A DNA stretch of 29,476 bases from a virus, in IMG/VR virus record IMGVR_UViG_3300037963_000485, positions 1 to 29,476 of that record. One strand, 5' to 3'. Of this stretch, positions 752 to 25,311 are shown one piece after another. The position numbers were made by a program, and so were the translations under genes. The notes under the pieces were generated by a model. It ran no database searches and was not told the DNA's origin. It saw nothing but the letters and a program-made list of their open reading frames with translations. Each line of letters opens with the position of its first letter. Positions within the stretch are counted from its first letter, which is position 1.

Positions 752-1243
752 ATGAATAGATTTATTATAGAAAAGACACCTCAAGAAATTGCATCATCTC
801 TATGTGACCAACACGTAGTTAAGATGCCACTTGAAGAAGCACAGATGTTATGTACTGCCTTATGGCATCATGCACCTCAGTATGCAGAAGATAATAACTT
901 GTACAAACCTGTACATCAAAAGCATCCATGTACTTTATGGGCAATGCAGACAAGAAGTAATTATTCTTTTGCTTGGAGATTGTATATTGCAATGCTTGTA
1001 GAGTATGAAGTTAGGTATGGCAAAAAGCATGGAGCAGGCAAGCATAAGTTTACTTTACTCAAAGGTATGGAGTATATACCTATGGGAGAACTGACTCAAC
1101 ATCCTCAATGTTTTAGTGGATTAGATGAGTTAAAGACAGATGAGTTTTATCCTATTGAAGCTTATAGAAAGTTTTATATTGCAGATAAGTTAGACTTTGC
1201 AAGATATAAATATACTACAAAACCTAGTTGGTTATATGTTTAA
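752..1243 (+). CDS. Conserved phage protein of unknown function (CDQHVVKM motif)
   Basis: The 163-residue product starts after an AAGGA site at 741-745. It carries CDQHVVKM near residue 18, then LEEAQML, and further on HPCTLWA. I recognise this pattern from hypothetical proteins found in many tailed phages, but I know of no established function. The conserved Cys/His residues (C18, H21, H58, C60) could bind a metal or form a catalytic site; this is inference. There is no membrane segment. Its place upstream of the replication genes suggests early expression. The gene is complete, and its last bases overlap the start of a small membrane protein. Confidence 0.8.
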   Translation: MNRFIIEKTPQEIASSLCDQHVVKMPLEEAQMLCTALWHHAPQYAEDNNLYKPVHQKHPCTLWAMQTRSNYSFAWRLYIAMLVEYEVRYGKKHGAGKHKFTLLKGMEYIPMGELTQHPQCFSGLDELKTDEFYPIEAYRKFYIADKLDFARYKYTTKPSWLYV

Positions 1244-2686: not shown

Positions 2687-4324
2687 ATGTCAAAAGTAAT
2701 GAGTAGAGGTAGTTGTTCCAACTGTGGTTCTTCAGATGCAAATATAAAGTACGAAGGTGGTACTAAGTTTTGTTTCTCTTGTAGAACTTATTCAAAAGCA
2801 GAAGGACATGAACAGGTTGCTAAACCTGTATCAATAAACAATAATCATTTAAACTTTAGTAGTGGAGTGATAGATGCTATACATGATAGACAGATTAAAA
2901 GAGAGACTTGTAACTTTTATAATGTCCAAGTCTTACACGATAGAAATAATAATGTGGTTAAGCATATATATCCTTATTTCGATATTAATAATAGTCACGT
3001 AGCTAATAAGGTAAGGCTTGTAGATAATAAAGCTTTCCATTCTGAAGGTGCATTACAGAATGCAACTCTGTTTGGACAGAATAAATTTAAAGGTGGTAAG
3101 TATCTTACAATATGTGAAGGAGAAGTTGATGCTCTGTCTGCCTATGAATTGATGGGTTCTAAGTGGGCATCTGTCTCAATAAAGAATGGTTGTCAGTCTG
3201 CACTAAGAGATGTCAAGGCAAACTATGACTACATCAATAAGTTTGAAAAGATTGTCATTTGTTTTGATAATGATGAGCATGGAAGAAAAGCAGCCAACCA
3301 AGTTGCTCAAGTCTTTGAACCTAACAAGTGTTTGATTATGGACATGAGGTTTAAGGATGCCAATGAATATCTCATGAAGAATATGAGAGAAGAGTTTACA
3401 AAAGATTGGTGGAATGCTAGACCTTATACACCTGCAGGCATATATAACTTGGCAGATATATCTAATCGTATCTATGAAGAGGATGATACAGAGACTTGTT
3501 TGTATCCTTATGCAGGATTAAATGATAAGTTATTTGGCATGAGGACAGGTGAACTTGTTACCTTTACTGCAGGCACAGGAGCAGGAAAGTCTTCTCTTAT
3601 GAGAGAGATGATGCACCACTTACTAAAGAATACTAAACATAATATTGGTGTGTTCTCTCTTGAAGAAAACATAACAAGAACTATGTTACATATTATGTCA
3701 GTAGAAGCTAGTGATAGATTATATATTAAGGAAGTACAAAAGAACTATACCACAGAGCAGTTACAAGCTTTTGAAAAAGAAACTATAGGTACAAGAAGGT
3801 TCTTTGGCTTTGACCACTTTGGTTCTATTACTACTGATGAGATATTAAATAGAGTAAGATATATGGTAAAGGCTTTGGATTGTAAGTACATACTTATTGA
3901 CCACCTTTCAATTCTTGTGTCAGGTATTGAAGGCGAAGATGAAAGAAGAAACATTGACCAACTTATGACAAAGCTACGTTCTCTTGTAGAAGAAACAAGA
4001 TGTGCAATGCTTCTTGTATCTCACTTGAGAAGAGCTACAGGAGATAAAGGTCAAGAGCAAGGTAAAGAAATATCTTTGTCAATGCTTAGAGGTTCACATT
4101 CTATTGCACAAATATCTGATGCAGTTATTGCTCTGGAAAGAGACCAACAAGCAGAAGACCCTGTGGTAGCGAATACAACTACTGTAAGGGTACTAAAGAA
4201 TAGATACGCAGGAGAGACAGGAGTAGCAACATATCTTCTGTATAATAAAGATTCAGGAAGATTAAAGGAGATAGAGAATCCTCTTGAATCTAATAATCAA
4301 AATGATTTAGAGGACTTTTTATAA
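2687..4324 (+). CDS. T7 gp4-like DNA primase-helicase
   Basis: This 545-residue replisome motor unwinds DNA and should lay down RNA primers. An N-terminal zinc finger is formed by C10, C13, C29 and C32. A TOPRIM primase domain follows, with CEGEVDALS (E144, D148), CFDNDEHG (D194, D196) and DANEYL. The C-terminal RecA-like helicase has Walker A AGTGAGKSS (K301), a Walker B-like YILIDHL, and LLVSHLRR. All catalytic motifs are present, so both activities are expected. The length matches T7 gp4 (566 aa). The AGGGAG site at 2674-2679 fixes the start. The stop overlaps the polymerase start by one base (TAATG), so helicase and polymerase are coupled, as expected for partners at the fork. Confidence 0.96.
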   Translation: MSKVMSRGSCSNCGSSDANIKYEGGTKFCFSCRTYSKAEGHEQVAKPVSINNNHLNFSSGVIDAIHDRQIKRETCNFYNVQVLHDRNNNVVKHIYPYFDINNSHVANKVRLVDNKAFHSEGALQNATLFGQNKFKGGKYLTICEGEVDALSAYELMGSKWASVSIKNGCQSALRDVKANYDYINKFEKIVICFDNDEHGRKAANQVAQVFEPNKCLIMDMRFKDANEYLMKNMREEFTKDWWNARPYTPAGIYNLADISNRIYEEDDTETCLYPYAGLNDKLFGMRTGELVTFTAGTGAGKSSLMREMMHHLLKNTKHNIGVFSLEENITRTMLHIMSVEASDRLYIKEVQKNYTTEQLQAFEKETIGTRRFFGFDHFGSITTDEILNRVRYMVKALDCKYILIDHLSILVSGIEGEDERRNIDQLMTKLRSLVEETRCAMLLVSHLRRATGDKGQEQGKEISLSMLRGSHSIAQISDAVIALERDQQAEDPVVANTTTVRVLKNRYAGETGVATYLLYNKDSGRLKEIENPLESNNQNDLEDFL

Positions 4325-5973
4325 TGAGATTCATAGTAGATATAGAGACTGATGCTATTGATGCAAAGGTTATTCATTGTATTGTTGCTAAGAATATTGA
4401 TACTGAAGAAGTATTAACTTGGCATGGAGATACTCTGAGAGACTTTGCTTCATGGGCAGAAACTGTTGACATATTTATTATGCATAATGGCATCTCTTTT
4501 GATGCACCTGTTCTCAATAAACTGACAGGAAGTAAGATAAAACTTTCACAGGTGAGAGACACTTTAATCCTTTCACAACTCTCAGACCCTATGCTAGAAG
4601 GTGGACATTCACTCAAGGCATGGGGTGAGAGATTGGGATTTGGAAAGATAGAGTATAATGACTTTAGTCATTTCAATGAAGAGATGTTAAAATATTGCAT
4701 ACAAGATGTACAACTAACACATAAACTTTATAAACATTTACTTCCTAAACTAAAGAAGTTTTCAAAGAAGTCTATGTTATTAGAGCATGAGATAAGAGCA
4801 ATTGTAAACAGGCAAGAACAGAATGGGTTCACACTAGATGTAAAGAGTGCAACTATCTTATGCTCTAAGCTTGAAGCAGAAGCTTCACAAATAGAAAAAG
4901 ATTTACAAACAGTTTTCCCACCTATCACAGAAGAAAGGTACTCTGAGAAAACAGGCAAGAGACTAAGTGATAAGGTGGAGCATTTCAATCCTAACTCTAG
5001 GCAACAAATATCTAAGAGGTTGATAGAGAAAGGTTGGAAACCTGAGAACCTCACACCTACAGGGCATCCTATAGTTGATGAAGGAACATTGAAGAAGATA
5101 AAAAATATTCCTGAAGCACTACAGATTGCTCACTATCTTCTACTACAGAAGAGAGTTTCTCAGATTAAATCTTGGATAGATGTTGTCCAAGAAGATGGCA
5201 AGGTGCATGGAAGAGTCATGACACTAAAAGCAATTAGTGGAAGAATGGCACATAACTCTCCAAATATGGCACAAGTTCCTGCTTCCTACTCTCCCTATGG
5301 AAAGGAATGTAGGTCAGTTTGGATACCTACAAATGACAAGTATACACTTGTAGGTTGTGATGCATCTAGCCTAGAGCTACGTTGCCTTGCTCATTATATG
5401 GGCGATAAAAAATTTACAAAAGAAGTTGTAGATGGTGACATACATACTGCCAATCAAAAGGCTGCAGGTCTGAAGACTAGAGACCAAGCAAAGACTTTTA
5501 TCTATGCTTTAATCTATGGAGCAGGTGCAGAAAAGATTGGTAGTATTGTAGGTGGTGGCAAGAATGAAGGACAGAAAGTTATCAATCAGTTTATGAAGAA
5601 TATGCCTGCCTTAAAAGCTTTGCGTGATAAAGTTGATAGGGTAGCGAAGACAGGATTCGTAAGAGGATTAGATGGCAGACTTCTGAAAGTTCGACAGTAC
5701 CATGCATCTATGAACTTGCTTCTTCAAGGAGCAGGAGCTATCATTTGTAAAGAATGGCTACGTCAAATAACCTATAAGGTGCAACAGGCATACGACTATA
5801 AGCTTGTTGCATCTATTCATGACGAATATCAATTTGAAGTTCGTAGAGACCAAGCAGAAAGGTTTGGGGAGATAACTAAACAAGCTATGAAGCTTACTCA
5901 AAAAGAACTGAGTATTCATTGTCCACTAGATAGTGAATATAAGATAGGAAAAAATTGGTATGAAACTCATTAA
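4324..5973 (+). CDS. T7-like family A DNA polymerase with 3'-5' exonuclease
   Basis: This 549-residue enzyme is the phage replicative polymerase. Proofreading motifs are DIETD (D6, E8), HNGISFD (D60) and YCIQD (Y124, D128). The polymerase domain has motif A with D346 in GCDASSLELR, motif B from R386 to G399 with K390 and Y398, and motif C with H499, D500 and E501. Tyr394 occupies the place of T7 Tyr526, the residue that limits discrimination against dideoxynucleotides. T7 polymerase has 704 residues; here only about 22 residues (199-220) stand where T7 has its long thioredoxin-binding insertion, so use of host thioredoxin as a clamp is doubtful. The gene overlaps the helicase stop by one base. 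Confidence 0.96.
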   Translation: MRFIVDIETDAIDAKVIHCIVAKNIDTEEVLTWHGDTLRDFASWAETVDIFIMHNGISFDAPVLNKLTGSKIKLSQVRDTLILSQLSDPMLEGGHSLKAWGERLGFGKIEYNDFSHFNEEMLKYCIQDVQLTHKLYKHLLPKLKKFSKKSMLLEHEIRAIVNRQEQNGFTLDVKSATILCSKLEAEASQIEKDLQTVFPPITEERYSEKTGKRLSDKVEHFNPNSRQQISKRLIEKGWKPENLTPTGHPIVDEGTLKKIKNIPEALQIAHYLLLQKRVSQIKSWIDVVQEDGKVHGRVMTLKAISGRMAHNSPNMAQVPASYSPYGKECRSVWIPTNDKYTLVGCDASSLELRCLAHYMGDKKFTKEVVDGDIHTANQKAAGLKTRDQAKTFIYALIYGAGAEKIGSIVGGGKNEGQKVINQFMKNMPALKALRDKVDRVAKTGFVRGLDGRLLKVRQYHASMNLLLQGAGAIICKEWLRQITYKVQQAYDYKLVASIHDEYQFEVRRDQAERFGEITKQAMKLTQKELSIHCPLDSEYKIGKNWYETH

Positions 5974-5978
5974 AGGGG

Positions 5979-6007
5979 TTTACATATTATCTTTTATATG
6001 ATATATT
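5979..6007 (+). promoter_or_regulatory. Probable sigma70-type promoter for SSB and downstream genes
   Basis: The 88-base gap after the polymerase holds TTTACA at 5979-5984, a 17-base spacer, and TATATT at 6002-6007. These match the TTGACA/TATAAT consensus at 5 of 6 and 5 of 6 positions. Transcription would begin near 6014, leaving a leader of about 48 bases with an AAGGAG site at 6048-6053 before the SSB start. The rest of the gap shows no gene or clear hairpin. AT-rich DNA gives chance matches, so confidence is moderate. Confidence 0.55.
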
Positions 6008-6061
6008 CGTTTTAACAATAACAGCAACCAAGATTGCACTATAAACTAAGGAGTAAAAACT

Positions 6062-6514
6062 ATGCCAGTATTAAGTGGTAAAGCCTATTGGGCAGCAATT
6101 TCAAATCCAAATACTACATTTGAACCTGTATGGTCAATTGATTTGGCTTTGGATTCTAAAGCTAAGAAAGAAGCAATCGACTTAGGTCTTACAGTTAAGA
6201 ATAAGTCAGATGACAGAGGTGATTTCGTGACCATTAAAAGAAAGGTCAAGAATAAAAGTGGGAATGATAATCCTGCACCTATGTTAAAGGACTCTGAGAA
6301 GAGAGACATCAGAGGTACATTAGTTGGTAATGGTTCTGATGTTAACGTACTCTTCAAGGTGTATGATTGGGAATACGCAGGCAAGAAAGGTAAAGGTTCT
6401 GATTTACAGGCAGTTCAAGTTACCAATCTTGTTGAGTACTCAGAAGGAGAGGACTTTGATGTCATCCCTGATGGGTATAAGTCATCAGAAAAAGCTGATG
6501 AAATCCCATTCTAA
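6062..6514 (+). CDS. Single-stranded DNA-binding protein, T7 gp2.5-like
   Basis: This 150-residue protein should coat single-stranded DNA at the fork and recruit polymerase and helicase. It starts MPVLSGKAYWAA, has an OB-fold-like pattern of beta strands through the middle (FVTIKRKV, VNVLFKVYDWEY, LQAVQVTNLVEY), and ends in an acidic tail finishing DEIPF. An acidic tail ending in phenylalanine is the hallmark of SSBs that bind replication partners. Position right after polymerase and before exonuclease and endonuclease I supports the assignment. A strong AAGGAG site precedes it, and the promoter upstream would allow the high level an SSB needs. Confidence 0.88.
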   Translation: MPVLSGKAYWAAISNPNTTFEPVWSIDLALDSKAKKEAIDLGLTVKNKSDDRGDFVTIKRKVKNKSGNDNPAPMLKDSEKRDIRGTLVGNGSDVNVLFKVYDWEYAGKKGKGSDLQAVQVTNLVEYSEGEDFDVIPDGYKSSEKADEIPF

Positions 6515-8166: not shown

Positions 8167-10080
8167 ATGAACAATAATTTATTACCAACAGACTATCAAA
8201 ATTTTATTGCTCTTTCTCGTTATGCGAGGTGGAGAGATGAAGACCAAAGAAGAGAGACTTGGACAGAAACTGTTTCAAGATACTTTGACTATATGCAGAA
8301 TCTACACCCTGCAATCCTTACAGACAAACTTAGAAATAAGTTAGAAGAAAAGATTGTAGGTTTACAGGTTATGCCTTCAATGAGAGCATTAATGACTGCA
8401 GGAGAAGCCTTAAAGACTTGTAATGTAACAAGCTATAATTGTAGCTACATTCCTGTTGATTCACCTAGAGCATTTGATGAGTGTATGTATATCCTCATGT
8501 GTGGTACAGGTGTAGGCTTCTCAGTGGAAAGAGATAATGTAAACAAACTACCTACAGTTAATGAACACTTTGAGAATAGCACAACTGTTATTAAGGTTGC
8601 AGATAGTAGACCCGGATGGGCAAGAGCATTACGTGAATTAATTGCAATGCTTTATGTAGGACAAATACCTACACTAGATACATCAGAGGTAAGACCTGCA
8701 GGTGCAAAACTAAAGACAATGGGTGGTAGAGCAAGTGGTCCTCAACCTTTAGTAGATTTATATAACTTTTGTATAAAGATATTTAGAGGAGCAAAGGGAA
8801 GAAAGCTTTTCCCTATTGAGTGTCATGACCTTATGTGTAAGATAGGAGAGGTTGTAGTTGTAGGTGGTGTTAGACGTTCTGCTCTTATATCATTATCCAA
8901 TTTAAATGATGACCAAATGAGACACGCTAAGTCAGGTCAATGGTGGAATGATGAAGGGCAAAGAGCATTAGCAAATAACTCAGTTGCTTACAAAGGCAAA
9001 CCTACTATGGGTACATTCATGAGAGAGTGGTTAGCTTTATATGAATCTCACTCAGGTGAGAGAGGTATCTTCAATCGTAAGTCTGCAATTGCAAAGGTTC
9101 AAGAGAATGGTAGACGAAATCATGAGCATGAGTTTGGATGCAATCCTTGTAGTGAAATCATTCTAAGACCTTATCAGTTCTGTAATCTTACAGAAGTTGT
9201 TGCAAGAGAAACTGATACTCTTGGAACTCTAAAAGAAAAGGTAGAGGTTGCCACTATACTTGGAACTCTACAGTCAACTCTTACTAACTTTAAATACCTC
9301 AGAAAGATTTGGAAGGATAATACAGAAGAAGAAAGATTATTAGGAGTATCTCTTACAGGTATAATGGATTCACCTATACTAAGTCATGAGTCCTTAGAAC
9401 TAGAAGATGTTCTTAACCAACTCAAACAGGTTGCTATTGATACAAATAAAAAGTATGCAGAAATGTTAGGCATACCTCAGTCAACTGCAATCACTTGTGT
9501 AAAACCTTCAGGTACAGTTAGTCAATTAGTTGACAGTGCTTCTGGTATCCATGCAAGACATAACGACTACTACATTAGAACTGTTAGAGGTGGTAACACA
9601 GACCCAATCACACAGTTCATGAAGGATGCAGGCATTCCTGCAGAACCTGACTTCAGTAAGCCTGATACAACAACTGTATTTAGTTTTCCTACCAAGTCAC
9701 CAAAGGGTGCAGTCACAAGAACTGAAATGACTGCTATACAACAGTTAAACTTTTGGTTGACCTATCAAAGACATTGGTGTGAACACAAACCTTCTATTAC
9801 AGTATCTGTTAAAGAAAATGAGTGGATGGAAGTAGGTGCTTGGGTGTATGAAAACTTTGATGAAGTATCAGGTATTTCTTTCTTACCTTTTAGTGAGCAT
9901 ACTTATGAGCAAGCTCCTTATCAGGACATAACTGAATCTGAGTACAAAGAGTTCATGAAGAAGATGCCTAAGTCTATTGATTGGCAGAAGCTTAGAGAGT
10001 ATGAGAAAGAAGATACAACGAAGGGCAGTAAGGAATTAGCCTGTACTGCAGGAGTATGTGAGGTTGTAGATATTCAATGA
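8167..10080 (+). CDS. nrdJ: Adenosylcobalamin-dependent (class II) ribonucleotide reductase
   Basis: This 637-residue monomeric-type class II enzyme reduces ribonucleotides to deoxyribonucleotides with a cobalamin-generated thiyl radical. Visible motifs: TSYNCSY with C92 (redox cysteine), GTGVGFSVERDNV, CNPCSEIIL with C328 (probable radical cysteine), QFCNL with C339 (redox partner), KPSGTVSQLVD, and a C-terminal CTAGVC (C626, C631) that re-reduces the active site. It is somewhat shorter than the Lactobacillus enzyme (739 aa). It needs no second subunit and no oxygen, but it does need B12 coenzyme from the host. Together with exonuclease and endonuclease I it would turn host RNA and DNA nucleotides into phage DNA. 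Confidence 0.95.
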   Translation: MNNNLLPTDYQNFIALSRYARWRDEDQRRETWTETVSRYFDYMQNLHPAILTDKLRNKLEEKIVGLQVMPSMRALMTAGEALKTCNVTSYNCSYIPVDSPRAFDECMYILMCGTGVGFSVERDNVNKLPTVNEHFENSTTVIKVADSRPGWARALRELIAMLYVGQIPTLDTSEVRPAGAKLKTMGGRASGPQPLVDLYNFCIKIFRGAKGRKLFPIECHDLMCKIGEVVVVGGVRRSALISLSNLNDDQMRHAKSGQWWNDEGQRALANNSVAYKGKPTMGTFMREWLALYESHSGERGIFNRKSAIAKVQENGRRNHEHEFGCNPCSEIILRPYQFCNLTEVVARETDTLGTLKEKVEVATILGTLQSTLTNFKYLRKIWKDNTEEERLLGVSLTGIMDSPILSHESLELEDVLNQLKQVAIDTNKKYAEMLGIPQSTAITCVKPSGTVSQLVDSASGIHARHNDYYIRTVRGGNTDPITQFMKDAGIPAEPDFSKPDTTTVFSFPTKSPKGAVTRTEMTAIQQLNFWLTYQRHWCEHKPSITVSVKENEWMEVGAWVYENFDEVSGISFLPFSEHTYEQAPYQDITESEYKEFMKKMPKSIDWQKLREYEKEDTTKGSKELACTAGVCEVVDIQ

Positions 10081-10208
10081 TAGGAAACGAACTTGACTGG
10101 TGGCAGTGGTGGTTACTCATTGCCATTACAATTAATACAGTAATCAATTCAATTGTCTTCTTTAGAGGAAGGAAGGTTTTTAGAAAAAATGCCAACACTG
10201 ATAACTAA
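10077..10208 (+). CDS. Membrane microprotein, 43 aa
   Basis: The ATG overlaps the RNR stop (ATGA). The peptide MIGNELDWWQWW leads into one hydrophobic helix (LLIAITINTVINSIVFF) and ends in a strongly basic tail (RGRKVFRKN), so it is predicted to be one-pass with the C-terminus in the cytoplasm. It overlaps the next gene by 20 bases. It fills what would otherwise be a 108-base gap in a very compact genome. It could be a small membrane effector or lysis accessory; the function is unknown. Confidence 0.5.
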   Translation: MIGNELDWWQWWLLIAITINTVINSIVFFRGRKVFRKNANTDN

Positions 10209-10815
10209 TTTACCTGCAGAAAAGGTATGGGTAAGAAAAGAATATCTTAGAGATTTAAAGGATGGTCATGGTGAATTTGTAGAAGGTGTATGGGTTTGTG
10301 CAAAATCCATTGCAGGTAGAGCATTCTATTTTGAAACTTATCTACCTCAGTATGGAGCATTGTTTGACAAGCTTCCTATCTCTGCCTTTTTATCTGAACC
10401 AAAGATACCTGAAAAAGATTTACCTCTACATGAGTTACAGTTTTGGAACTGTATGGATTATGGTATTGTGTCTATCCACAAACAGTTTATAGCAAGCATG
10501 AACTATGAAATAATAACAAAGAATAGTGGCACTATGAATGGCACTTATATTTGTACACTAGATAACTATCATGAAGATGTAGATACTGTTGATTATAGTA
10601 CAAGTGAAAAACCTGAGGAACATAAATCATTTAACTTAATAGAACTTACCAATGGTCAGTATGCACTCTATCCTAATAACAGAATGAGAGTATATGACAA
10701 TTCCCTTACCCCGAAAGAACCTAAGACACCTGACTTTCGTGTTAGCACTGAAGTATATCAGGTAGAATGTGGTGAAGAAATCAGACTAGGTGATACATCT
10801 GAATATCATTATTAA
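10189..10815 (+). CDS. Conserved marine-phage protein of unknown function, 208 aa
   Basis: The ATG at 10189 is preceded by AGGAAGGAAGG at a longer than usual distance of about 13 bases; the frame also has an upstream TTG at 10153, which I consider less likely. Recognisable segments are EKVWVRKEYLRDLKDGHGEF, PQYGALFDKLPISAF, then LTNGQYALYPNNR and TPDFRVSTEVYQVE. I have a clear impression of this sequence pattern in hypothetical proteins of cyanophages and other marine phages, but know no function. It is mostly beta, soluble and acidic. It is the last gene before the second promoter. Confidence 0.8.
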   Translation: MPTLITNLPAEKVWVRKEYLRDLKDGHGEFVEGVWVCAKSIAGRAFYFETYLPQYGALFDKLPISAFLSEPKIPEKDLPLHELQFWNCMDYGIVSIHKQFIASMNYEIITKNSGTMNGTYICTLDNYHEDVDTVDYSTSEKPEEHKSFNLIELTNGQYALYPNNRMRVYDNSLTPKEPKTPDFRVSTEVYQVECGEEIRLGDTSEYHY

Positions 10816-11106: not shown

Positions 11107-11871
11107 ATGTTTACTTATAAAAGACCTGCTATATACGTGGGGTATGACCCCAAAGAACACATTGCTTTTGAAGTATTAAAATATTCTATTGAAAGATTCA
11201 ATCATAAGTATGACATTATTCCATTGGAGCAGTCATCCTTACGTAGGTCAGGTCTTTATAGAAGAGCTTACTATATTGATGAAGAAGGTCAGAAGAGAGA
11301 TTCATCTGACAAGAGACCCTTTAGTAGTGAGTTTACTTTCACAAGATTTCTAGTTCCATTTATTAATTTACACAAAGGACTCGCACTCTTTATGGATTGT
11401 GATATGTTTGTAAGAGCAGACATCTCAGAAATATTTGATGAGTATGGACAGTATGAAGAGTATGCAGTATCTGTAGTAAAACATGACTACAATCCAAAAG
11501 ATACTAAGAAAATGGACAATCAAAAACAAGAAAATTATAACAGAAAGAATTGGTCAAGTTTCATACTATGGAATTGTGAACATCCTGCTCATGATAATCT
11601 AACTGTAGATGATGTCAATACTAAATCAGGTAGGTGGCTTCATAACTTTAGTTGGCTAGATGAACATGAGATAGGTTCTATTCATCCCAAGTGGAACTTT
11701 TTAGATGGTTGGACAGACGAATCAATTAATCCATGTAATGTACACTTTACAACAGGAGGACCTTGGTTTGATGGTTGGACACCTAAGAGAACAATTGATG
11801 GAAGTTATACAGGTGAGTGGAATACTTTAAGAAACGATTATAACTCAAGACTATTACCAAAGGAATATTAA
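11107..11871 (+). CDS. GT8-like glycosyltransferase
   Basis: The 254-residue protein starts with AIYVGYDPKEHIAFEV, typical of GT-A type sugar transferases, and has LFMDCDMF with a D97-C98-D99 (DXD) metal and nucleotide-sugar site. Further family features are PFSSEFTFTRFLVP before the DXD, VKHDYNP, NWSSFILWNC and HPKWNF. It should move a sugar from a nucleotide donor to an unknown acceptor in the cytoplasm. No signal peptide or membrane anchor is seen. It is followed two bases later by a multi-domain protein that also has a transferase-like domain, so the two probably work on the same glycan or glycoprotein. Confidence 0.85.
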   Translation: MFTYKRPAIYVGYDPKEHIAFEVLKYSIERFNHKYDIIPLEQSSLRRSGLYRRAYYIDEEGQKRDSSDKRPFSSEFTFTRFLVPFINLHKGLALFMDCDMFVRADISEIFDEYGQYEEYAVSVVKHDYNPKDTKKMDNQKQENYNRKNWSSFILWNCEHPAHDNLTVDDVNTKSGRWLHNFSWLDEHEIGSIHPKWNFLDGWTDESINPCNVHFTTGGPWFDGWTPKRTIDGSYTGEWNTLRNDYNSRLLPKEY

Positions 11872-11872
11872 T

Positions 11873-14206
11873 ATGTACACATTTGTAACTTCATTTAGTG
11901 AAGAAGGATATAATACTTATGCAAAGAAAATGCTTGAAAGTGTCGCAGATAAATGGAATCCAAAACATTTTAAACTGTATGCTTACTACCACGATTTCGA
12001 TATTAAAAAGGTTGACCACCCTATTTCTCCTAGCATTGTATATATACATCTTAATGATGTAAAAGAAATGGAACAGTATCGTGAACGAATGAAAGTTCAT
12101 GATGGTACAGAAGGTGGAAAGATACCATATAATTGGAGACTTGATGCAGTCAAATGGTGTCATAAAGTTTATGCATTAACTGAGCAGTCATTCAAGATGA
12201 TGGAAAATAATCCTGAAGAATCCAATTGGTTGATATGGCTTGACGCAGATACAATAACTCATAAAAGATTAGAAAAGAAGGCACTTGATAAATGGCTTCC
12301 TGAAAAAGCAAGTCTTGTACATCTTGGAAGAAAAGATGTTGATTATAGTGAGACAAGCTTCATGGCATTTAATTTACTTTATCATGATGCCTGCTCTATA
12401 CTTGCAGATTTAAGAGGTTGTTATACTCTAGGAGAAACATTATCTTATAGAGAATGGCATGATGGTTTTATATTTGAGAGACTACTCAATATATATAAGG
12501 CACATGGTATGATTGTAAATAATCTATCTGAGAATTGTAAAGGTTTAACTGCCTTCATGCAGTCACCTCTATCAGAATACTTTACACACTTCAAGGGAAA
12601 CTTAAAAAAGAATGCAAACTCTACGAATACAGAAGTTGCACCTGACATCAAGCTACCAAGATACAAACAACTTGCAGATATTATAAGACATTACAAACCA
12701 AAGTCACTTGTAGAAGTTGGAACTTGGAATGGTGGTCGTGCAATAGAAATGGCACTTGCAATGTTTGAGTATAGAGATAAGTGTCACTATCTAGGATTTG
12801 ATTTGTTTGAAGAAGCAAATGAACAGACTGATGACTATGAGATGAACACTAAAAAGCATCACTCAATAGAACTCATTGAGAATAGACTTAATCAGTTTGC
12901 AGAAAAGATGAAAGAAAAAGGTAAGACATTTACTTTTAAACTTCACAAAGGAGATACAAAAGAAACACTAAAGAAGTGTAAGGCTGCTTCAAAAGTAGAC
13001 TTCGCATTCATAGATGGTGGACACTCCTATGAAACTGTAAAGTCTGACTATGAAAATTTAAAGACTGTTCCTATTCTAGTGTTTGATGATTTCTTTTCTA
13101 AGGATGATAAGGGTATGCAACCTGCAGAAAAGAACATGGGTGTAAACAAACTTATAAAAGAAATAGAAGCTTATGGTAAGGTTGTGTTACCTTCTAATGA
13201 TAGAGTAGTAGGTGGTGGCAGAACTCATATTGCTTTTGTTGCAACAAAGAAAGGAATAGAAAAACTTCCTGAACATATAACACGTATGCCTATTGTTGTT
13301 ACACCTAGAGATTCAAGACCTAAAGAAGAAATTTTTGACAATATAAAAGCTAATAAGAAACTTATCAAAAACTTTGGTTGGTTAAAACATAGTAAAATAA
13401 ATAATGAAACTGCAATCATTGTTTCAGGTGGAGAAAGCACTGACTATAGAAAACTAAAAGATATGATAGAGTCTTACAAAGATTATAACAAAGAAAATTG
13501 TAAAGTCTTTTGTGTCAAGCATAGCTATCCTAAATTAATACAACATGGTATACAACCTTTCATGTGTGTTATTCTTGACCCAAGACCTATCACAGGTATT
13601 AGTACTCATGGTGTAAAAAGAAAAGATTTATTTAAGACTATTGATAATAAAACTTTATTCTTAGTTGCTTCCATGACTGACCCTTCTGTAACAAAACATC
13701 TTATTAAAAAGAAAGCAAACATATTAGGTTGGTCTGCCTACTCAGAAGCATTAAGAGATACAGACATTACAGATAAAATAAAACTACATAAAGATACAGG
13801 TATTGATGAAGGAGAAACACTTGTATCAGGTGGCACTTGTGCTGCTATGAGAACAATTTCTCTTGCTCACATACTAGGATTTAGAAACTTTGAGTTGTTT
13901 GGTTTTGACTGCTCTGTACCTAAAGTAACAGAAGAAATGTCTAAAGAAATACTTAATAATAAACCTAAGTATTTTAAAGTTGAAACAAATGGCGAATACT
14001 TTTGGACTACAGGTGAGCTTCTCGCAATGGCACAAGACTGTGAAAAGTTATTTGATAACAAAGAAATAGATGTTTCTATTAATATGAATGGCAAGAACAC
14101 TCTTGTATCTGCAGTATATAAAAATTCTATGAGAGCAACAGAACCTCAGTATTCAGATATACTTCTATCTACAGGTACAAGTAAAGAGGTATGGAATGCT
14201 GCTTAA
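11873..14206 (+). CDS. Three-domain protein: glycosyltransferase-like, methyltransferase, DUF115/MptE-like
   Basis: This 777-residue protein looks like a fusion. Residues 1 to about 250 resemble a GT-A glycosyltransferase with WLIWLDADT (D124, D126). Residues about 262-460 form a class I SAM-dependent methyltransferase of the Methyltransf_24 type: LVEVGTWNGG (E281-G288), YLGFDLF, and FIDGGHSY (D381, H384). Residues about 500-760 match the DUF115/MAF_flag10-like domain: IIVSGGEST (517-523), CVILDPR, SGGTCAAMR (652-660), GFRNFELFGFDCS (669-681). DUF115 proteins include Maf flagellin glycosylation proteins and archaeal MptE. A joint role in building or attaching a modified sugar is inferred. The AAGGAA site precedes the start; the end overlaps the terminase gene by 11 bases. 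Confidence 0.8.
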   Translation: MYTFVTSFSEEGYNTYAKKMLESVADKWNPKHFKLYAYYHDFDIKKVDHPISPSIVYIHLNDVKEMEQYRERMKVHDGTEGGKIPYNWRLDAVKWCHKVYALTEQSFKMMENNPEESNWLIWLDADTITHKRLEKKALDKWLPEKASLVHLGRKDVDYSETSFMAFNLLYHDACSILADLRGCYTLGETLSYREWHDGFIFERLLNIYKAHGMIVNNLSENCKGLTAFMQSPLSEYFTHFKGNLKKNANSTNTEVAPDIKLPRYKQLADIIRHYKPKSLVEVGTWNGGRAIEMALAMFEYRDKCHYLGFDLFEEANEQTDDYEMNTKKHHSIELIENRLNQFAEKMKEKGKTFTFKLHKGDTKETLKKCKAASKVDFAFIDGGHSYETVKSDYENLKTVPILVFDDFFSKDDKGMQPAEKNMGVNKLIKEIEAYGKVVLPSNDRVVGGGRTHIAFVATKKGIEKLPEHITRMPIVVTPRDSRPKEEIFDNIKANKKLIKNFGWLKHSKINNETAIIVSGGESTDYRKLKDMIESYKDYNKENCKVFCVKHSYPKLIQHGIQPFMCVILDPRPITGISTHGVKRKDLFKTIDNKTLFLVASMTDPSVTKHLIKKKANILGWSAYSEALRDTDITDKIKLHKDTGIDEGETLVSGGTCAAMRTISLAHILGFRNFELFGFDCSVPKVTEEMSKEILNNKPKYFKVETNGEYFWTTGELLAMAQDCEKLFDNKEIDVSINMNGKNTLVSAVYKNSMRATEPQYSDILLSTGTSKEVWNAA

Positions 14207-14738
14207 AGAAAAGCATGAAAAGTTTTGTCAGAACTATGTCCTGCATAGAAATGCCACACGAGCTGCTAAAGATGCAGGATATAGCGAAGTCTCTGCTCAC
14301 AATCAAGGTGGCAGGTTACTTAAACAACAAGATATAAAAGATAGAATAGATGAATTATCTTCCAGTCTCACAACTAGTATAGACGTTGTAGATGAGATAG
14401 AAAATCAATATAATGTAGCTCGTACACAAGGACAGACTACATCTGCTCTCAAGGCTTTGGAGCTTTTATCAAGAATAAGAGGAAATAATATTGATGTAGA
14501 TGAGATTACAACTGAATCTCTTGAAGAAGATATTATAAAGTGTATGGAAGTTCTTGGATTAGAAAAATGTTTAGAGTTAATTCAGAGAGCATTTCCTGAT
14601 GAACTATATGATACAGATGATATTCCTGAAGATGATGATTCTATAAGTTATGATATGCCTGTAGAACAGGAAGACCTTGAAGAAGCAGAAGAATCATTTC
14701 TTACCACTGAAGAACTTAAAGGCCCATCTGATTCCTAA
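14196..14738 (+). CDS. terS: Terminase small subunit (Terminase_2 type)
   Basis: The N-terminus reads LKEKHEKFCQNYVLHRNATRAAKDAGYS, then GGRLLKQQDIKDRIDEL. This is the DNA-binding helix-turn-helix domain of Terminase_2 small subunits, which recognise phage DNA and load it on the large terminase. Residues about 62-90 are a helical, possibly oligomerising, segment; the C-terminal third is strongly acidic (EDIIKCM to EDLEEAEES). The 180-residue length fits the family. The large subunit is not beside it and must lie outside the window. The gene is the last on this strand and overlaps the convergent holin gene by 45 bases. Confidence 0.85.
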   Translation: MLLKEKHEKFCQNYVLHRNATRAAKDAGYSEVSAHNQGGRLLKQQDIKDRIDELSSSLTTSIDVVDEIENQYNVARTQGQTTSALKALELLSRIRGNNIDVDEITTESLEEDIIKCMEVLGLEKCLELIQRAFPDELYDTDDIPEDDDSISYDMPVEQEDLEEAEESFLTTEELKGPSDS

Positions 14739-15080
14739 AGAAGCTGCGACTGCTCCCATAAAACTCCACTGATACCAATCAGGTGCTTTGTTTATGTATT
14801 CCCATCCTTTGAGAACATAATCTTGTATATTAGGGATGAAGCTCCCGATGAAAGGTAGGGTAAGGATGACAAGTACATATTCATCTTTCCATGAATATCT
14901 TGTTTGTCGTAAGGCTTCAATGTCATAGTCTTGGTCTGACTTGGCTGCCTTTTCAATCCTGTTAATTTCTGCATTTAATCTTGCCTGTTCTATCTTAGAC
15001 TTGTGTTCTGCCTTTACCTTCCTACTATCCATATAAGAAGAAGCAAGACTTGTTACTCCACTAATTATTGCACCCCACAT
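14694..15080 (-). CDS. Holin, GTA_holin_3TM-like
   Basis: I start the 128-residue protein at MWGAIISGVTSLA, one base after the endolysin stop; a longer version from 15110 would overlap the endolysin. There is a hydrophobic N-terminal segment, a charged middle (SRKVKAEHKSKIEQARLN, and EALRQTRYSWKDEY), then two further membrane segments (VLVILTLPFIGSFI and WSFMGAVAASLGI) and a basic C-terminus. This matches the three-helix holins related to gene transfer agent holins. It should open the inner membrane to release the endolysin. It is the last gene of the late operon. Confidence 0.82.
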   Translation of the reverse strand: MWGAIISGVTSLASSYMDSRKVKAEHKSKIEQARLNAEINRIEKAAKSDQDYDIEALRQTRYSWKDEYVLVILTLPFIGSFIPNIQDYVLKGWEYINKAPDWYQWSFMGAVAASLGIRWAFKFFSGKK

Positions 15081-15081
15081 A

Positions 15082-15567
15082 TTACACCCACTCTCCTGTC
15101 TCCATTGCATTGGAAAGTCGCACTGCCCTGTTACCTACTTGTTTTGCCCAACGAGAATCTAACATTTCAATTTTTGCAGAAGGAAAGTCTTTATTATCTA
15201 TAGCTTTCCACATTTTTTTAAATTTACCTAGTCGTGGCACACCCATATTGAATGCCATGTCAATAATTATTCTTTGTCTCACTTCGTCTAATTCTATCAC
15301 ACAAGGATGCTTTTCACAAACTTCCTTCTCAACTATCTTGATATCGTTCTCTGCTAAGTAGTAAGCATTCTCTTTTGTTATACCCCACTCATATACACTA
15401 GACATATCCTTTCCCATATGAGTTAACTCTAAATCAGATATACCTCTATCAACTAAGTTACGACCTATTCCTATGGTATTTATTCCCAAAGAATCTTCAT
15501 AAGGCATAAGCTCCAATCCCTCATGTTCAACAAGTTGGTCTAACAGTTCTGTTATGTTGTATTTCAT
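15082..15567 (-). CDS. Endolysin, GH24 (T4 lysozyme-like) muramidase
   Basis: The 161-residue protein carries HEGLELMPYEDSLGINTIG, giving E16, D25 and T31. Their spacing (9 and 6) equals that of the T4 lysozyme catalytic residues E11, D20 and T26. The C-terminal part has RIIIDMAFNMG and RWAKQVGNRAVRLSNAMETG, typical of the GH24 fold. It cuts the glycan strands of peptidoglycan. No signal peptide or membrane anchor is present, so export should depend on the adjacent holin. A GGTGGAAG site precedes the start, and the ATG overlaps the stop of the upstream gene (ATGA). Confidence 0.95.
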   Translation of the reverse strand: MKYNITELLDQLVEHEGLELMPYEDSLGINTIGIGRNLVDRGISDLELTHMGKDMSSVYEWGITKENAYYLAENDIKIVEKEVCEKHPCVIELDEVRQRIIIDMAFNMGVPRLGKFKKMWKAIDNKDFPSAKIEMLDSRWAKQVGNRAVRLSNAMETGEWV

Positions 15568-16568: not shown

Positions 16569-19500
16569 TTTCTCAACCTCGTTCCTGTTAATTGTGCTTG
16601 AACCTGACCTAACGCATTTATAAGTTCAGGTGGAAACTTTTTATCTTTAAGTATTGTCATTATGTTAGGAGCATTTAATACATTATCAGGCATAAAAAAT
16701 CCTTTACCATCTTCACCATCTTGCAATGCATACAATACAGAGTCATCTACTTTTCTTCTTCCCATATTACTATTTGCTTCTATTATTTTTTCTATACCAA
16801 ATCTCTTTTTAAAAACATTATTACCTTCTTGTTTGTAGTACTTAATATTTTTAATTAGGTTTAATCTGTCAGAAAACTGTCTCATTAGTTTCTTCTTTTC
16901 TATTTGAGAATCTATATACATCTCTACTATATTGTCAACATCTTCCTGAGTATATACTTTAGAATCATATCTTTTTAAATCACTTATAAATTTTTTAATA
17001 GGTTGATTTAATTTTTGATTCTCATTGTATATAAAATAACCTACTGATTTTGAAACATTCATATTAGAATTTCTAATACCTGTGCCAAAATGTTGAAGCT
17101 CATCTTCCCATTTTATAGGATAGCCACTATCATTAGAAGCTATAGGCAGTCCATCATACTTTGCTTTTTCTTCTGCTTCATAAGCTTTGTAAACTCTCCA
17201 TGCACTTTTAGCAGTTCCCGGAACAAATACTTTTCCTATTCCTTGCAATGCTTCAAAATTAGAAATCTCTCTACCATTTGCATCACGACCTCTATACATA
17301 TTAAGTAATGCACCAAATAAAAACTTTTCTGATGTAAATGGACTATATATTTCTCTTGTTGCATTTATAAATTTATCTTCTAATTCAGTTTCAGTAACCT
17401 CTCCACCTGCAAATATTGTTCCTAGTATTCCTTTTACTATATTCTTTGTATATTGATTTGCATCTAAAGAACCTGAGTCTACAAATGAAGTAAACACTTC
17501 TCCATTCTGTCCTTCGTATATAGGAGATGTAAAAGCTTTGGATGTATTTTTTTGCCAATCAGAAACTAACTGATTAATACCTTTTTGACTTTCTTTAGTT
17601 ACTCCCATTCCTGTATATTCATCTTCATTATTTCTGTTAAAAGCATAGTCAATACCTACAGTCGTTGCGGCAGCACCTGATAATCTTCTTAATCCTATTA
17701 ATCTTAATTGGTTATTACCTTGTTTATTAAATATATCTCTTAATGCATATTTTAAAATATTAAAATTACTTCTTAATATTTCTGCAGGGAATGTTGCATA
17801 TGTTCCAAAGAAAGGCAACTGTGCTAATTTTCTTACTGCAGGTATTGCAGTCGTATATGAAGGCATTGTATTTCTTACAATCTCTGCAGCATAATCAAAT
17901 GCTTCATCATCAGTTAAATTAAGTGCCTTCTTATAAGATTTCATTTCTGCTTGTAGTGCAGTTAACTTACCAAAGTCATCAGTCAAACCATACGCTTCAG
18001 AAGGAAATCTCCCTGCTTTTTTTATAACTCTTTTAATTCCTGACTGTGCTAAATTTTCATCAAGCACATCAAGATTTTTTCTTACTATTTCTGCATTAAC
18101 ACTAGAATCAACAACACCCTTTTCTTTTGCCTTTGCAAAAAACTTTAATGCTTCAGGGTCTTTCTTTAAGAATGCTTTTTGATATATAGTCTTTGCTGCT
18201 TTTGCAAACTCTTTACCTCTAAATATATGTCCATTAGTTGCAAGCGTTTGAAACATACCAATCATATTTACTATATGTGCAGTATGGTCAAATACAGTTT
18301 CTGCTGCTTGAGTAACACCTGCACTTCTTTGTACTATTCTTTTAAAAACATTTGCAAACCCACTTCCAATAGGCATATTAGTATCAAATACATCAATACC
18401 TTTATCAATCATTTTGCCAAACATATCTGTTGTCATATACTTATTTAGTCCAAAAGCTTTTCCATCCCCACCTAAAGCTCCCATTTCTTTTGCAACAATA
18501 TCTCCAATATTTTTATTTAAACCTATTTGGTCTTCTTTTAATATTTTAGTAGTTGCAGTAGGAAGAAACTCAAACAATCCACCTAGCTTTATTTCTTGTC
18601 CTAAGTTTTCATCTGCAAACTTTTTTATATCTTTAAAATATTGTGCTTTAGCTATACCCTTATTTAAGTTACGCATAGTTTCTATATAGTTTCTATAAGG
18701 GTCTTTTACTTCTCCTAAAAAATTAATTAGTCTATCATCTAATTTTTTTCTTTGCTTAAATATTTTTATAGGTTTACCACCTGAACTAAATCCCATTATA
18801 CCTGCAAGTGTATCAGCTTGACCTGTCTCACCTTTAGTTACACCACTAATAAATTTATCTAATACACCATCAATCTGACCACCTGTTAGACTAGGATTAA
18901 TTTCTTTCAGATAATCTCTCATGTCATTTATTCTATCTATAGTATCTGCATCATTCAAATCACCTCGTAATCCTTTTTGTAATTTTTTTGCCCAAGCAGG
19001 ATTAGTATAAAATTCATAACTCTTAGTTATATATGAGTTTAAATTTTTATCTATGGCAATTCCTAATTTATTTTTATCAGATAAATTTAGAATATTTTTT
19101 AAGTTAGTGCTTTGAATATCTATATTATTTCTAAGTCTTCTTGTAAGATTTGTAAGCTCATCAGATAATTGACCTAACGCATCCTGACCTTGTAAAACTC
19201 TATTAACATCATTTCTTAATGCTTCTTTACCTGCACTATCTAAATTCTTTGTTTCTTTTTTAATTACTTGTTCTAAATCTTTTGCACCCTGTTTAACTAG
19301 TAACTCTTTTCCTTCTGCATATTTATTCTTTTTTATATATGCTTTAAATATTTGGTCAGGCATAGCTGCCTTTGACCTAAATACTCTACCAAGTTTAGTA
19401 TTAATCTTTGCAACTGCAGAAGACATCTTACCTCTTTGTAAAAATTGACCCGGAGACTGTTGAACAACTTCTACATTACTTGCTACATTATTAGATGTAT

Positions 19501-22915: not shown

Positions 22916-23135
22916 TTGTTCTCCCTATCCTATTAGGCATAGCATAATAAGATTGTTCTTTCGTCATATTTGCTTGAAAGTTACTGATTTTATTATTACT
23001 CTTATTATACAACATTCCTGTGTTTAATGCCATACCCTGTATTGTTTTTGTACCAAAATAGTCATTTGTTTGTGTAATACCTTTATTTATATTATCTATA
23101 AATGTACTGTCTGCTATAAACTTAAAATAATTCAT
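22896..23135 (-). CDS. Small virion-associated hypothetical protein, 79 aa
   Basis: I use the ATG at 23135, which shares one base with the stop of the upstream gene (TGATG); an ATG six codons earlier is also in frame. The product MNYFKFIADSTFIDNINKGI is aromatic at the start, then polar and Asn-rich (TGMLYNKSNNKISNFQAN), ending RIGRTNGILDK. It has no clear membrane helix or known motif. Its position between tail-hub and injection-type proteins suggests a small structural part or assembly factor. Overlaps on both sides support coupled translation. Confidence 0.65.
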   Translation of the reverse strand: MNYFKFIADSTFIDNINKGITQTNDYFGTKTIQGMALNTGMLYNKSNNKISNFQANMTKEQSYYAMPNRIGRTNGILDK

Positions 23136-23398
23136 CAATGAAAATCCACCCATGCACTACCTGTATAACCTTTAAACTTGCTTTCTCCTAAAGAAAAAGC
23201 TACGTCACCTTCTTGAGGATTACCTAAGTCAGTAACAGTTGTTACCTGTATTACCTTAAAAGAAGGTCTTGAGTTTTCTAAGTCATCTCTTATCTGAAGA
23301 GAAGCAGTTAGTCTATTACCCCAACCTGCAATCTCATTATACATTTCTTTAATGTCTTGTATATTTCTATACGTACTAAACTGAGGATAGGTAGCCAT
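23135..23398 (-). CDS. Small tail-associated protein, 87 aa
   Basis: The first half is a helix (RNIQDIKEMYNEIAGWGNRL) and the second half is beta: GNPQEGDVAFSLGESKFKGYTGSAWVDFH. The end pattern, a short EGD strand followed by KGYTGSAWVDF, is common in phage fibre- and tail-associated proteins where it forms a small beta domain displayed on the virion. I recognise the pattern rather than a named family. The start overlaps the stop of the tail-hub gene by one base (TAATG), suggesting fixed stoichiometry with it. Confidence 0.7.
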   Translation of the reverse strand: MATYPQFSTYRNIQDIKEMYNEIAGWGNRLTASLQIRDDLENSRPSFKVIQVTTVTDLGNPQEGDVAFSLGESKFKGYTGSAWVDFH

Positions 23399-25311
23399 TA
23401 TCTTTTACCATCATTCTGTAATGCCATACGAACAGTACCCCATCTCCATGAACCATCATTAGTTGCAGATACCTTTACAGAAGCCTGTCTACCTCTTGCT
23501 CTCATGTCTATTTTAGTTACTGCTGAGTTAATTACAAAAGGTCCTTTTACTGTTTCATTTGCAGAGTTAGGATACTCTTTTACATTTACAAATATATTTA
23601 TATTCTGACCATCATCAAGTTTATAGTCAGGTATAATTCTATTTATATACATAATATCATCACCATCACCTACATCAAAGTTTGAAGATTTAATAAATGA
23701 TGTTAGTGAGTTTCCTTCATCATCTGTATAATATTCTTCAGGCTCATTATCAAATACAAATTGACTTGAATCAGTTACACCCTGAAAATCAGTTCGTTTT
23801 CCTGTAGCAATAGTATTATCAAATACTTGTCTGTCTTTATATGTAGTATAAAAACTATCACCAAATACCCAAGTTCTTTCTTCAGTATTATAAATAACAT
23901 AAGCATTAGGTTCTGTAGAGTTTCCTTTAGGATACAACCATATTATTTCTTTAAACTCTGAATTAATACCTGCATATACTTTATCTTTATTTGTATTATT
24001 AAAGTCATCAAATAAATGTCTTCTTATTGTACATGGTAAGTTTTGTATTCTACCATCATAAGCATAAAAATTATTGTCACCCATCCAATAAGCTACACCA
24101 TCATAGTCAATTGCTGCATGAGGACCTATAAGTCCACACTTTGTACCTAACTGAGTAAATCTAAATACACTTGCTCTGTCACCTGTAAAAACCATATTGT
24201 GTAAAGAGTTGTCAGTCCATATAAGTATTTCACCTCTTGACCTTACTGCTCCTATAATTTCTGTGCCATCTGCAAGAGGATTTTCTCTTGATGTTGTTCC
24301 TGAACTTACTGCCCAATTAGAAAAGTCTTCTTGGTCTGACCAACGTACAAGTAATGGGTCAAATGTACCATCAATAGAGTTTGTTCCAAAACAAATAACA
24401 TGACCATCATTAGGAGACACAAGTAAAAAGTTTGATTTAACAGGTGCTGAAGTTGCAGTAATATGAACTGCATTTGTTGAACTTGTTACAATCTTCATTC
24501 TTTCAGGTGTTACAGATGCATCCTGTTTAAAGGCAAGTATTTGTCCACCTCTTCTTACACCTAATACATATTCTTCATAGTTATCAAAAGACCACTGATT
24601 ACTTCTAAATGTAATATTAGAAACAGATGAAGGTTGATTCCATGCTCTTATATTTGTTGTTGTAGTTCCTGCATTATACACACCTGCACCATATCCTAAA
24701 CCCTGAATAGCATCTGTTAACTCATTACCTAATAAAAATGCAACAGAAACTGTAGTACCTCCTGCTTCTGCAGATGTATTTGCTGCAACAGTTACTGCAT
24801 TTATTTTAAAGGAATTTAAATCTGTCACACTTGCAACTGCATAAATTCCTGTACCTAAAGAAGTTATACCTACTAAATTAATATTACCACCTATAGAAGC
24901 TGCACCTTCTACAATTATTCTGTCACCTGCTGCTCTTCCATGATTAGTAATACTTACTCCTACTTCCTTAGAACCTTGAGTTGTAGAAAATATATTACTA
25001 TCTTCAACAACAGTTACAATAGGAGTTACATCATAAAATTGTTGGTCTTTCTCTACAATAACTTCTTTATTTGTTCCTATTATAATATGTTTTCTTGAAT
25101 CAAAATCTGTCCATGCAAGAATATCTCTAGGAGTTCCTGAAATAGAAGTTGTATTATGTTTTTTATAACCTCTTAAATTTTCAGGTTTACCCTGTCTAAA
25201 TCTTACTCTGTTACCTTCAAACCATTTACCTTCTTCTCCATAACGAGTAGACTCTTTATGAAATCCGGGAACAAACTGTAATTTGGTTAATTTAGAATCT
25301 GTAGATGCCAT
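23398..25311 (-). CDS. Tail hub/tube-like structural protein, 637 aa
   Basis: The N-terminus LQFVPGFHKESTRYGEEGKW, then VRFRQGKPENLRGYKK and ILAWTDFDSRKHIIIGTNKEV, is typical of a protein found in the tail modules of many short-tailed phages. It is mostly beta, with repeated Trp/Tyr-rich strands (AYWMGDNNFYAYDGR, IIWLYPKGN, TWVFGD) that suggest a beta-propeller like those of T7 gp12 and P22 gp10-type tail proteins. That equivalence is inferred from length, composition and neighbours. It probably closes the tail tube and joins fibres to it. The upstream fibre gene overlaps it by one base. Confidence 0.75.
   Translation of the reverse strand: MASTDSKLTKLQFVPGFHKESTRYGEEGKWFEGNRVRFRQGKPENLRGYKKHNTTSISGTPRDILAWTDFDSRKHIIIGTNKEVIVEKDQQFYDVTPIVTVVEDSNIFSTTQGSKEVGVSITNHGRAAGDRIIVEGAASIGGNINLVGITSLGTGIYAVASVTDLNSFKINAVTVAANTSAEAGGTTVSVAFLLGNELTDAIQGLGYGAGVYNAGTTTTNIRAWNQPSSVSNITFRSNQWSFDNYEEYVLGVRRGGQILAFKQDASVTPERMKIVTSSTNAVHITATSAPVKSNFLLVSPNDGHVICFGTNSIDGTFDPLLVRWSDQEDFSNWAVSSGTTSRENPLADGTEIIGAVRSRGEILIWTDNSLHNMVFTGDRASVFRFTQLGTKCGLIGPHAAIDYDGVAYWMGDNNFYAYDGRIQNLPCTIRRHLFDDFNNTNKDKVYAGINSEFKEIIWLYPKGNSTEPNAYVIYNTEERTWVFGDSFYTTYKDRQVFDNTIATGKRTDFQGVTDSSQFVFDNEPEEYYTDDEGNSLTSFIKSSNFDVGDGDDIMYINRIIPDYKLDDGQNINIFVNVKEYPNSANETVKGPFVINSAVTKIDMRARGRQASVKVSATNDGSWRWGTVRMALQNDGKR

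Follow-up and report, generated by a model that had tools for sequence, protein, structure and literature searches.

The nearest working analogue of the protein described here is A064R of chlorovirus PBCV-1, a 638-aa protein with the order glycosyltransferase, glycosyltransferase, methyltransferase that builds the capsid glycan (PMC9614988); a second methyltransferase of that system, A061L, is encoded separately. Maf/PseD proteins (structure 5mu5, Pfam family PF01973) place a Rossmann domain with methyltransferase-like motifs before a sialyltransferase-like domain, and DUF115/Maf relatives act on cytosolic protein (PMC11339370). The family PF01973 includes a pterin pyrophosphokinase as well, archaeal HPPK/MptE (8sd5), a single-domain cofactor enzyme with no glycan context. 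In the gp188-gp191 cluster of Mosig (pelagiphage type), homologues of two of the parts described below, a GT8 protein and an N-terminal domain, are neighbours and are accompanied by methyltransferases. We found no relevant paper on DUF115 or MptE-like proteins in phages, and to our knowledge the virion glycans of marine phages are almost unstudied.

The window, a 29,476-nucleotide stretch of viral DNA (IMG/VR record IMGVR_UViG_3300037963_000485), encodes one protein with the following features:

11873..14206, + strand: gene of the three-transferase fusion protein, 777 aa, identified by profiles, folds and homologues
11873..12607, + strand: N-terminal domain, predicted GT-A-fold glycosyltransferase, residues 1-245 (AF2, Foldseek and VIA)
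12242..12250, + strand: DAD (D124, D126), the DxD motif, invariant in 49 sequences
12587..12598, + strand: H239-F-K-G242, GT8-like HxxG signature, close to where the GT-A domain ends; H239, K241 and G242 invariant in 49 sequences
12629..13258, + strand: class I SAM O-methyltransferase-like domain, residues 253-462 (Pfam Methyltransf_24, Foldseek and VIA)
12713..12736, + strand: EVGTWNGG, SAM-binding motif I; E281, G283, G287 and G288 in 30 of 30 homologues
13013..13030, + strand: DGGHSY; D381 in 30 of 30
13298..14092, + strand: DUF115/MptE-like, sialyltransferase-like domain, residues 476-740 (PF01973 and fold matches)
13421..13441, + strand: VSGGEST, first glycine motif of DUF115; S518, G519 and G520 invariant in 30
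13877..13915, + strand: GFRNFELFGFDCS, GxD motif of DUF115; G677, D679 and S681 invariant in 30 and kept in a clade 46% identical

Like A064R, this is predicted by fold and profile to be one soluble viral polypeptide with two transferase domains and a class I SAM methyltransferase, and its first domain likewise has a GT-A fold (2p72, Z 13.7) with a DxD motif. Unlike A064R, it follows the order GT-A, methyltransferase, DUF115, its second transferase is DUF115/sialyltransferase-like rather than of the A064R-D2 family, identity is about 11% over the shared fold, and the host is a bacterium. Residues 253-740 repeat the domain order of Maf/PseD. Unlike Maf, the fusion begins with an additional GT-A domain, keeps the SAM motif intact where the Maf Rossmann domain is degenerate, and has only 37 residues after the DUF115 domain, which leave no room for the C-terminal helical domain (domain description in PMC11339370); against the PseD family model it scores 36.9 bits, with a cut-off of 670. 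Archaeal HPPK/MptE shares the Pfam family and the fold of residues 476-740. In Mosig, the parts are separate genes in a different order with FkbM-type methyltransferases, and the genome has no PF01973 match. We did not file the fusion as Maf or GT8 because it falls below the Maf model cut-off, lacks the Maf C-terminal domain and stays under the GT8 cut-off. One deposited protein, UniProt A0A6J7X5Q0 from an uncultured Caudovirales phage (714 aa), matches in both fold and sequence over the full length (33% identity over 773 columns, E 1.5e-55), so the architecture was already in the databases; it is named only as a methyltransferase-domain protein, with no function proposed. Each domain is of a known kind; their combination, order, core-gene status and partner gene are, as far as our tools show, undescribed.

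Three domains in one reading frame

The fusion gene is an intact + strand reading frame with an ATG start, 777 translated codons and a GGA-type ribosome-binding site, CAAAGGAATATTAATATG. Profiles and folds bear out the earlier note for all three parts that it had named, glycosyltransferase-like, methyltransferase and DUF115, which run in the order GT-A (1-245), O-methyltransferase-like (253-462) and DUF115 (476-740). The five motifs fall exactly where it had placed them (DAD at 124-126, EVGTWNGG at 281-288, DGGHSY at 381-386, VSGGEST at 517-523 and GFRNFELFGFDCS at 669-681). Among 30 representative homologues, every one matched both the Methyltransf_24 and the MptE-like/DUF115 profiles of Pfam. 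With dN/dS at ~0.09-0.11 in each of the three, all domains appear to be under constraint. In a deeper clade (L338-L341), 46% identical, nearly all checked residues are kept; the substitutions are H196T, S231C, Y386L and C656A.

Modelled over its full length with AlphaFold2 from 30 homologues, the protein gave a mean pLDDT of 78 and a pTM of 0.45, so single domains are usable and the packing between them is unreliable. Foldseek searches of the PDB with this model returned Maf 5mu5 first (E 2e-9), followed by TrmR/COMT-type O-methyltransferases and GT6 alpha-1,3-galactosyltransferase. Sequence searches of solved structures gave weak matches only. We found no hydrophobic or membrane segment in the protein, which is therefore probably cytosolic.

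The N-terminal domain was modelled separately (AF2) from 49 sequences that combined the window family with stand-alone homologues 23-28% identical (two lineages), reaching a pLDDT of 88.5 and a pTM of 0.88. Foldseek matched the model to GT6 alpha-1,3-galactosyltransferase (E 2.5e-8), XXYLT1 and glycogenin. VIA-align placed it with BoGT6a (4ayl, Z 13.8) and with the first domain of A064R (2p72, Z 13.7, 3.1 A over 180 residues), in a fold list filled by GT6/GT8/GT34-type structures (Z 12.7-13.8). Judged by these models, residues 1-245 have a GT-A fold, for which sugar transfer is predicted. Besides the DxD motif and the histidine-glycine motif, which we take to resemble the GT8 HxxG signature, D91, K98, R153, E160, N167 and D197 are invariant in the 49 sequences. 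None of the 49 matched a Pfam glycosyltransferase family above its cut-off, GT8 included, so we label the domain 'GT-A-fold' and assign no family. Pfam AEP-TOTE, a weak hit in 1 of 49 (E 0.0067), is contradicted by the GT-A fold.

The middle domain matched Methyltransf_24 (PF13578) at residues 280-398 with 46.3 bits against a cut-off of 26.3 (E 8.5e-12). Together with motif I and a Rossmann methyltransferase fold, this profile identifies it as a class I SAM methyltransferase. Foldseek matches are of the TrmR/COMT type (E about 1e-6), and VIA gave TrmR (Z 16.2), the Mg-bound sugar O-methyltransferase MycF (Z 15.5, a value that many other O-methyltransferases share) and SpnH (Z 15.1). The Pfam TylF cut-off was not reached (17 bits against 23). 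D381 of DGGHSY forms a candidate metal-binding triad with D405 and D406 of FDDF (residues 404-407), at positions where metal-dependent sugar O-methyltransferases presumably hold Mg; D405 and D406 occur in 29 of 30 homologues, and the triad is kept in the 46% clade.

Profile and fold alike assign the C-terminal domain to the DUF115/MptE-like superfamily, with PF01973 matched at residues 486-683 (E 8.7e-19, 68.4 bits against a cut-off of 34.6). The motifs SGG, LDPR, GGT and GFDCS are invariant among 30 homologues. By VIA, residues 476-740 match M. jannaschii HPPK 8sd5 (Z 15.1, 3.3 A, 200 residues), and residues 245-755 match Maf 5mu5 with Z 19.0 and 356 aligned residues, at an rmsd of 14.4 that means no single rigid superposition; 5mu5 is aligned over 34-502 of its 632-residue chain. 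The best NCBIfam match of the domain is PseD (FlagModPseD, E 1.7e-9).

Partner gene, conservation and phage group

The genes on either side of the fusion are:

11107..11871, + strand: GT8-like glycosyltransferase gene, the partner of the fusion; 254 aa, with a DCD motif and HFTTGGPW near the C-terminus
14196..14738, + strand: terminase small subunit (Pfam Terminase_2, E 1.3e-14), overlapping the 3' end of the fusion gene by 11 bases

The upstream protein matched phrog_28018 (E 6e-49). We call it 'GT8-like' because it stays below the Pfam GT8 cut-off (19.2 bits against 24.3) while its homologue Mosig gp188 passes (30.9).

An alignment-pattern scan of IMG/VR yielded 409 stretches encoding a relative. 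The fusion occurs down to 46% identity. Among the best 80 of these 409 loci, 76 hold the fusion at full length and the other 4 end at contig edges. Wherever the IMG/VR loci have sequence there, the GT8-like gene lies directly upstream and the terminase small subunit directly downstream, followed by an inverted lysozyme and virion module. Another set was chosen as DNA polymerase neighbours with enough downstream sequence, without the fusion as a selection criterion, and all 23 of its loci carry both the fusion and the GT8-like gene. The 76 full-length loci and the 23 polymerase-chosen ones rule out a sequencing-type or other artefactual fusion, and the latter also rule out dispensable cargo within the group. 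Two outcomes that the earlier note had set against its own reading, a missing DUF115 or methyltransferase fold and homologues that are always separate genes, were looked for, and neither occurred. Its pairing of the fusion with the preceding enzyme is strongly supported, since the two are adjacent in every covered locus and, in a myovirus lineage that is unrelated, homologues of the GT8-like gene and of the N-domain neighbour each other again.

No isolated phage in INPHARED carries the fusion. We set aside a host origin as well, since a scan of GTDB genomes with fusion-derived patterns, a kind of search with limited reach, found no relative.

The DNA has a GC content of 33.9%, and its polymerase is nearest to those of pelagiphages HTVC103P/104P/115P (47%); in HTVC104P and HTVC115P the cassette is absent from the corresponding place. 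On a related 58-kb contig (G001), the terminase large subunit is nearest to that of HTVC027P/023P (about 39-40%). The host is likely a SAR11-like or other low-GC marine bacterium. Because no integrase-family gene was found in 11 long contigs, the group is probably lytic.

Some other genes were noticed in the window and on G001. After a B12-dependent (class II) ribonucleotide reductase with an insertion domain (8167-10815) comes a gene with a TTG start, whose 220-aa product belongs to the PHROG 'ferredoxin' family (phrog_3704, E 2.6e-103); such a gene was detected in the close clade and is missing from most of the more distant loci. The replication/glycan operon ends with the terminase small subunit gene, and on G001 the small (23008-23490) and large (42933-44456) subunits are ~19 kb apart on opposite strands. 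Antisense to the small subunit gene and overlapping its 3' end is a 138-aa open reading frame (14694-15110, - strand), whose G001 homologue is 89% identical, compared with 66% for the terminase small subunit; by sequence conservation it is possibly a real, strongly conserved overlapping gene. G001 also encodes a C-5 cytosine DNA methylase (16732-17754, - strand, E 2.8e-54), and positions 752-1243 (+ strand) of the window have a weak, sub-threshold match to a pyrimidine dimer DNA glycosylase of the T4 endonuclease V type.

The same parts as separate genes

The GT8-like gene has homologues in Mosig, Caulobacter giant phages, S-SCSM2R, DLP6 and MW202512. On Mosig-type contigs, 70 of 80 loci with the N-domain homologue also have a GT8 homologue (many of the remaining loci are truncated), and in Mosig-type myoviruses FkbM methyltransferases adjoin the pair. 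The methyltransferase and DUF115 parts of the fusion had no match in Mosig-type loci, so only the N-domain and GT8 parts are common to both lineages. A tblastn search of isolated phages with the DUF115 part alone likewise gave no significant match. Mosig gp186 (8178-8795 of its locus) belongs to a sulfotransferase family (Sulfotransfer_2, 47 bits) and lies in the glycan cluster; such a gene was found in only 2 of 80 related contigs.

Comparable company recurs elsewhere. In MW202713, a Manatee Spring podovirus, the N-domain homologue precedes a methyltransferase gene, after which comes one for a relative of Mosig gp187; the N-domain homologue is an unannotated open reading frame (3263-4027 of the locus examined), and the cluster, which lies next to the terminase large subunit, also has a DegT-type aminotransferase. 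In DLP6 a methyltransferase, the GT8 homologue and a GT29 sialyltransferase-family protein are consecutive. The last of these in Stenotrophomonas phage DLP6, gp202 (5635-6426 of the locus), is annotated 'hypothetical protein' and passes Pfam GT29 (31.8 bits against 23), a mainly eukaryotic family of sialyltransferases. Caulobacter phages have a gene with a weak, below-cut-off DUF115 match ~2 kb from the GT8 homologue, called sialyltransferase-like in some annotations, and in S-SCSM2R KdsB and KdsA of the CMP-Kdo route lie near the GT8 homologue.

Proposed function and competing readings

We consider it somewhat more probable than the opposite that the fusion and the GT8-like protein form a soluble two-protein assembly line that builds a methylated oligosaccharide on a virion protein, in an uncultured marine podovirus group. 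Sugars would be added from nucleotide-sugar donors by two enzymes, the GT8-like protein and the N-terminal GT-A domain, judging by fold, DxD and histidine-glycine motif. The middle domain, with its methyltransferase fold and motif I, would then use SAM to O-methylate what is presumably a sugar, and a methylated sugar is reasonably inferred as the product. DUF115 would add a further sugar in the manner of Maf and sialyltransferases, plausibly from a CMP-activated acid such as Kdo. Donors would be supplied by the host: six long contigs, possibly incomplete, contain no CTP_transf_3 or epimerase-family genes, and the donors are therefore probably host-made. The acceptor, the weakest step, would most likely be a virion protein that receives its glycan in the cytosol, prior to assembly. 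We favour this because protein is the target of Maf, the group seems to be lytic and the A064R analogue serves a capsid glycan.

A more specific version is put forward tentatively, and we regard it as rather doubtful. Here, a core enzyme of an uncultured pelagiphage-like group would coat the phage's virion protein with a methylated glycan whose last sugar is a CMP-derived acid (Kdo or nonulosonic acid). Donors would come from the host, DUF115 would act as the phage-encoded protein or glycan transferase, and the enzyme would be a one-protein glycan assembly line of a kind demonstrated to date only for chloroviruses.

That a sizeable group of uncultured phages retains the three fused transferases and their partner enzyme as core genes suggests that infection depends on the decoration, which would then be no optional cargo. 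The fusion is a concrete, expressible enzyme in which genomic context ties DUF115 to phage glycan building, and it would be a bacterial-virus counterpart to the chlorovirus A064R system.

The main rival reading replaces the virion protein as acceptor by a glycan of the host surface (lipopolysaccharide or capsule) or by its lipid-linked precursor; we hold this unlikely, though sequence alone favours neither. The same enzymes would remodel the surface during infection, for example by blocking the adsorption of other phages or of the phage's own progeny to debris. Phage glycosyltransferases are known to alter host O-antigen, the GT8 family includes lipopolysaccharide glycosyltransferases, and the fusion shares an operon with the genes for ribonucleotide reductase and DNA replication, so that its expression may precede that of the virion module. 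Such remodelling, however, is mostly a trait of temperate phages, whereas the 11 contigs have no integrase and the fusion protein no membrane segment; the action of DUF115/Maf relatives on cytosolic protein (PMC11339370) points the same way.

Very improbable, in our judgement, is the reading that the enzymes glycosylate and methylate modified bases of the phage DNA to shield it from host nucleases. Phage enzymes such as T4 AGT/BGT do glycosylate modified DNA bases, the fusion gene lies within a DNA-metabolism operon, and the middle domain has a match to a PHROG family that bears the name DNA methyltransferase. The fold matches of that domain, however, are O-methyltransferases (TrmR, COMT and MycF) and not DNA methylases, and DUF115 is no known DNA-modifying fold. 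DNA had been among the targets raised in the earlier note; glucosylation of the T4 type is disfavoured because the thymidylate-synthase family (dCMP/dUMP hydroxymethylase) is absent from the six long contigs, possibly incomplete.

Least probable of all is a role of the fusion in cofactor metabolism, with a genuine pterin pyrophosphokinase (MptE) as its C-terminal domain, as the Pfam name MptE-like, the scope of PF01973 and the 8sd5 match might suggest: the domain is fused to a GT-A domain beside a GT8-like gene, its best NCBIfam match is a flagellin-modification protein and its top fold match Maf, and, as the best argument for a sugar transferase, split homologues repeatedly keep such company, since the clusters of phages with GT8 homologues also include sialyltransferase-like genes, either GT29 or DUF115-like.
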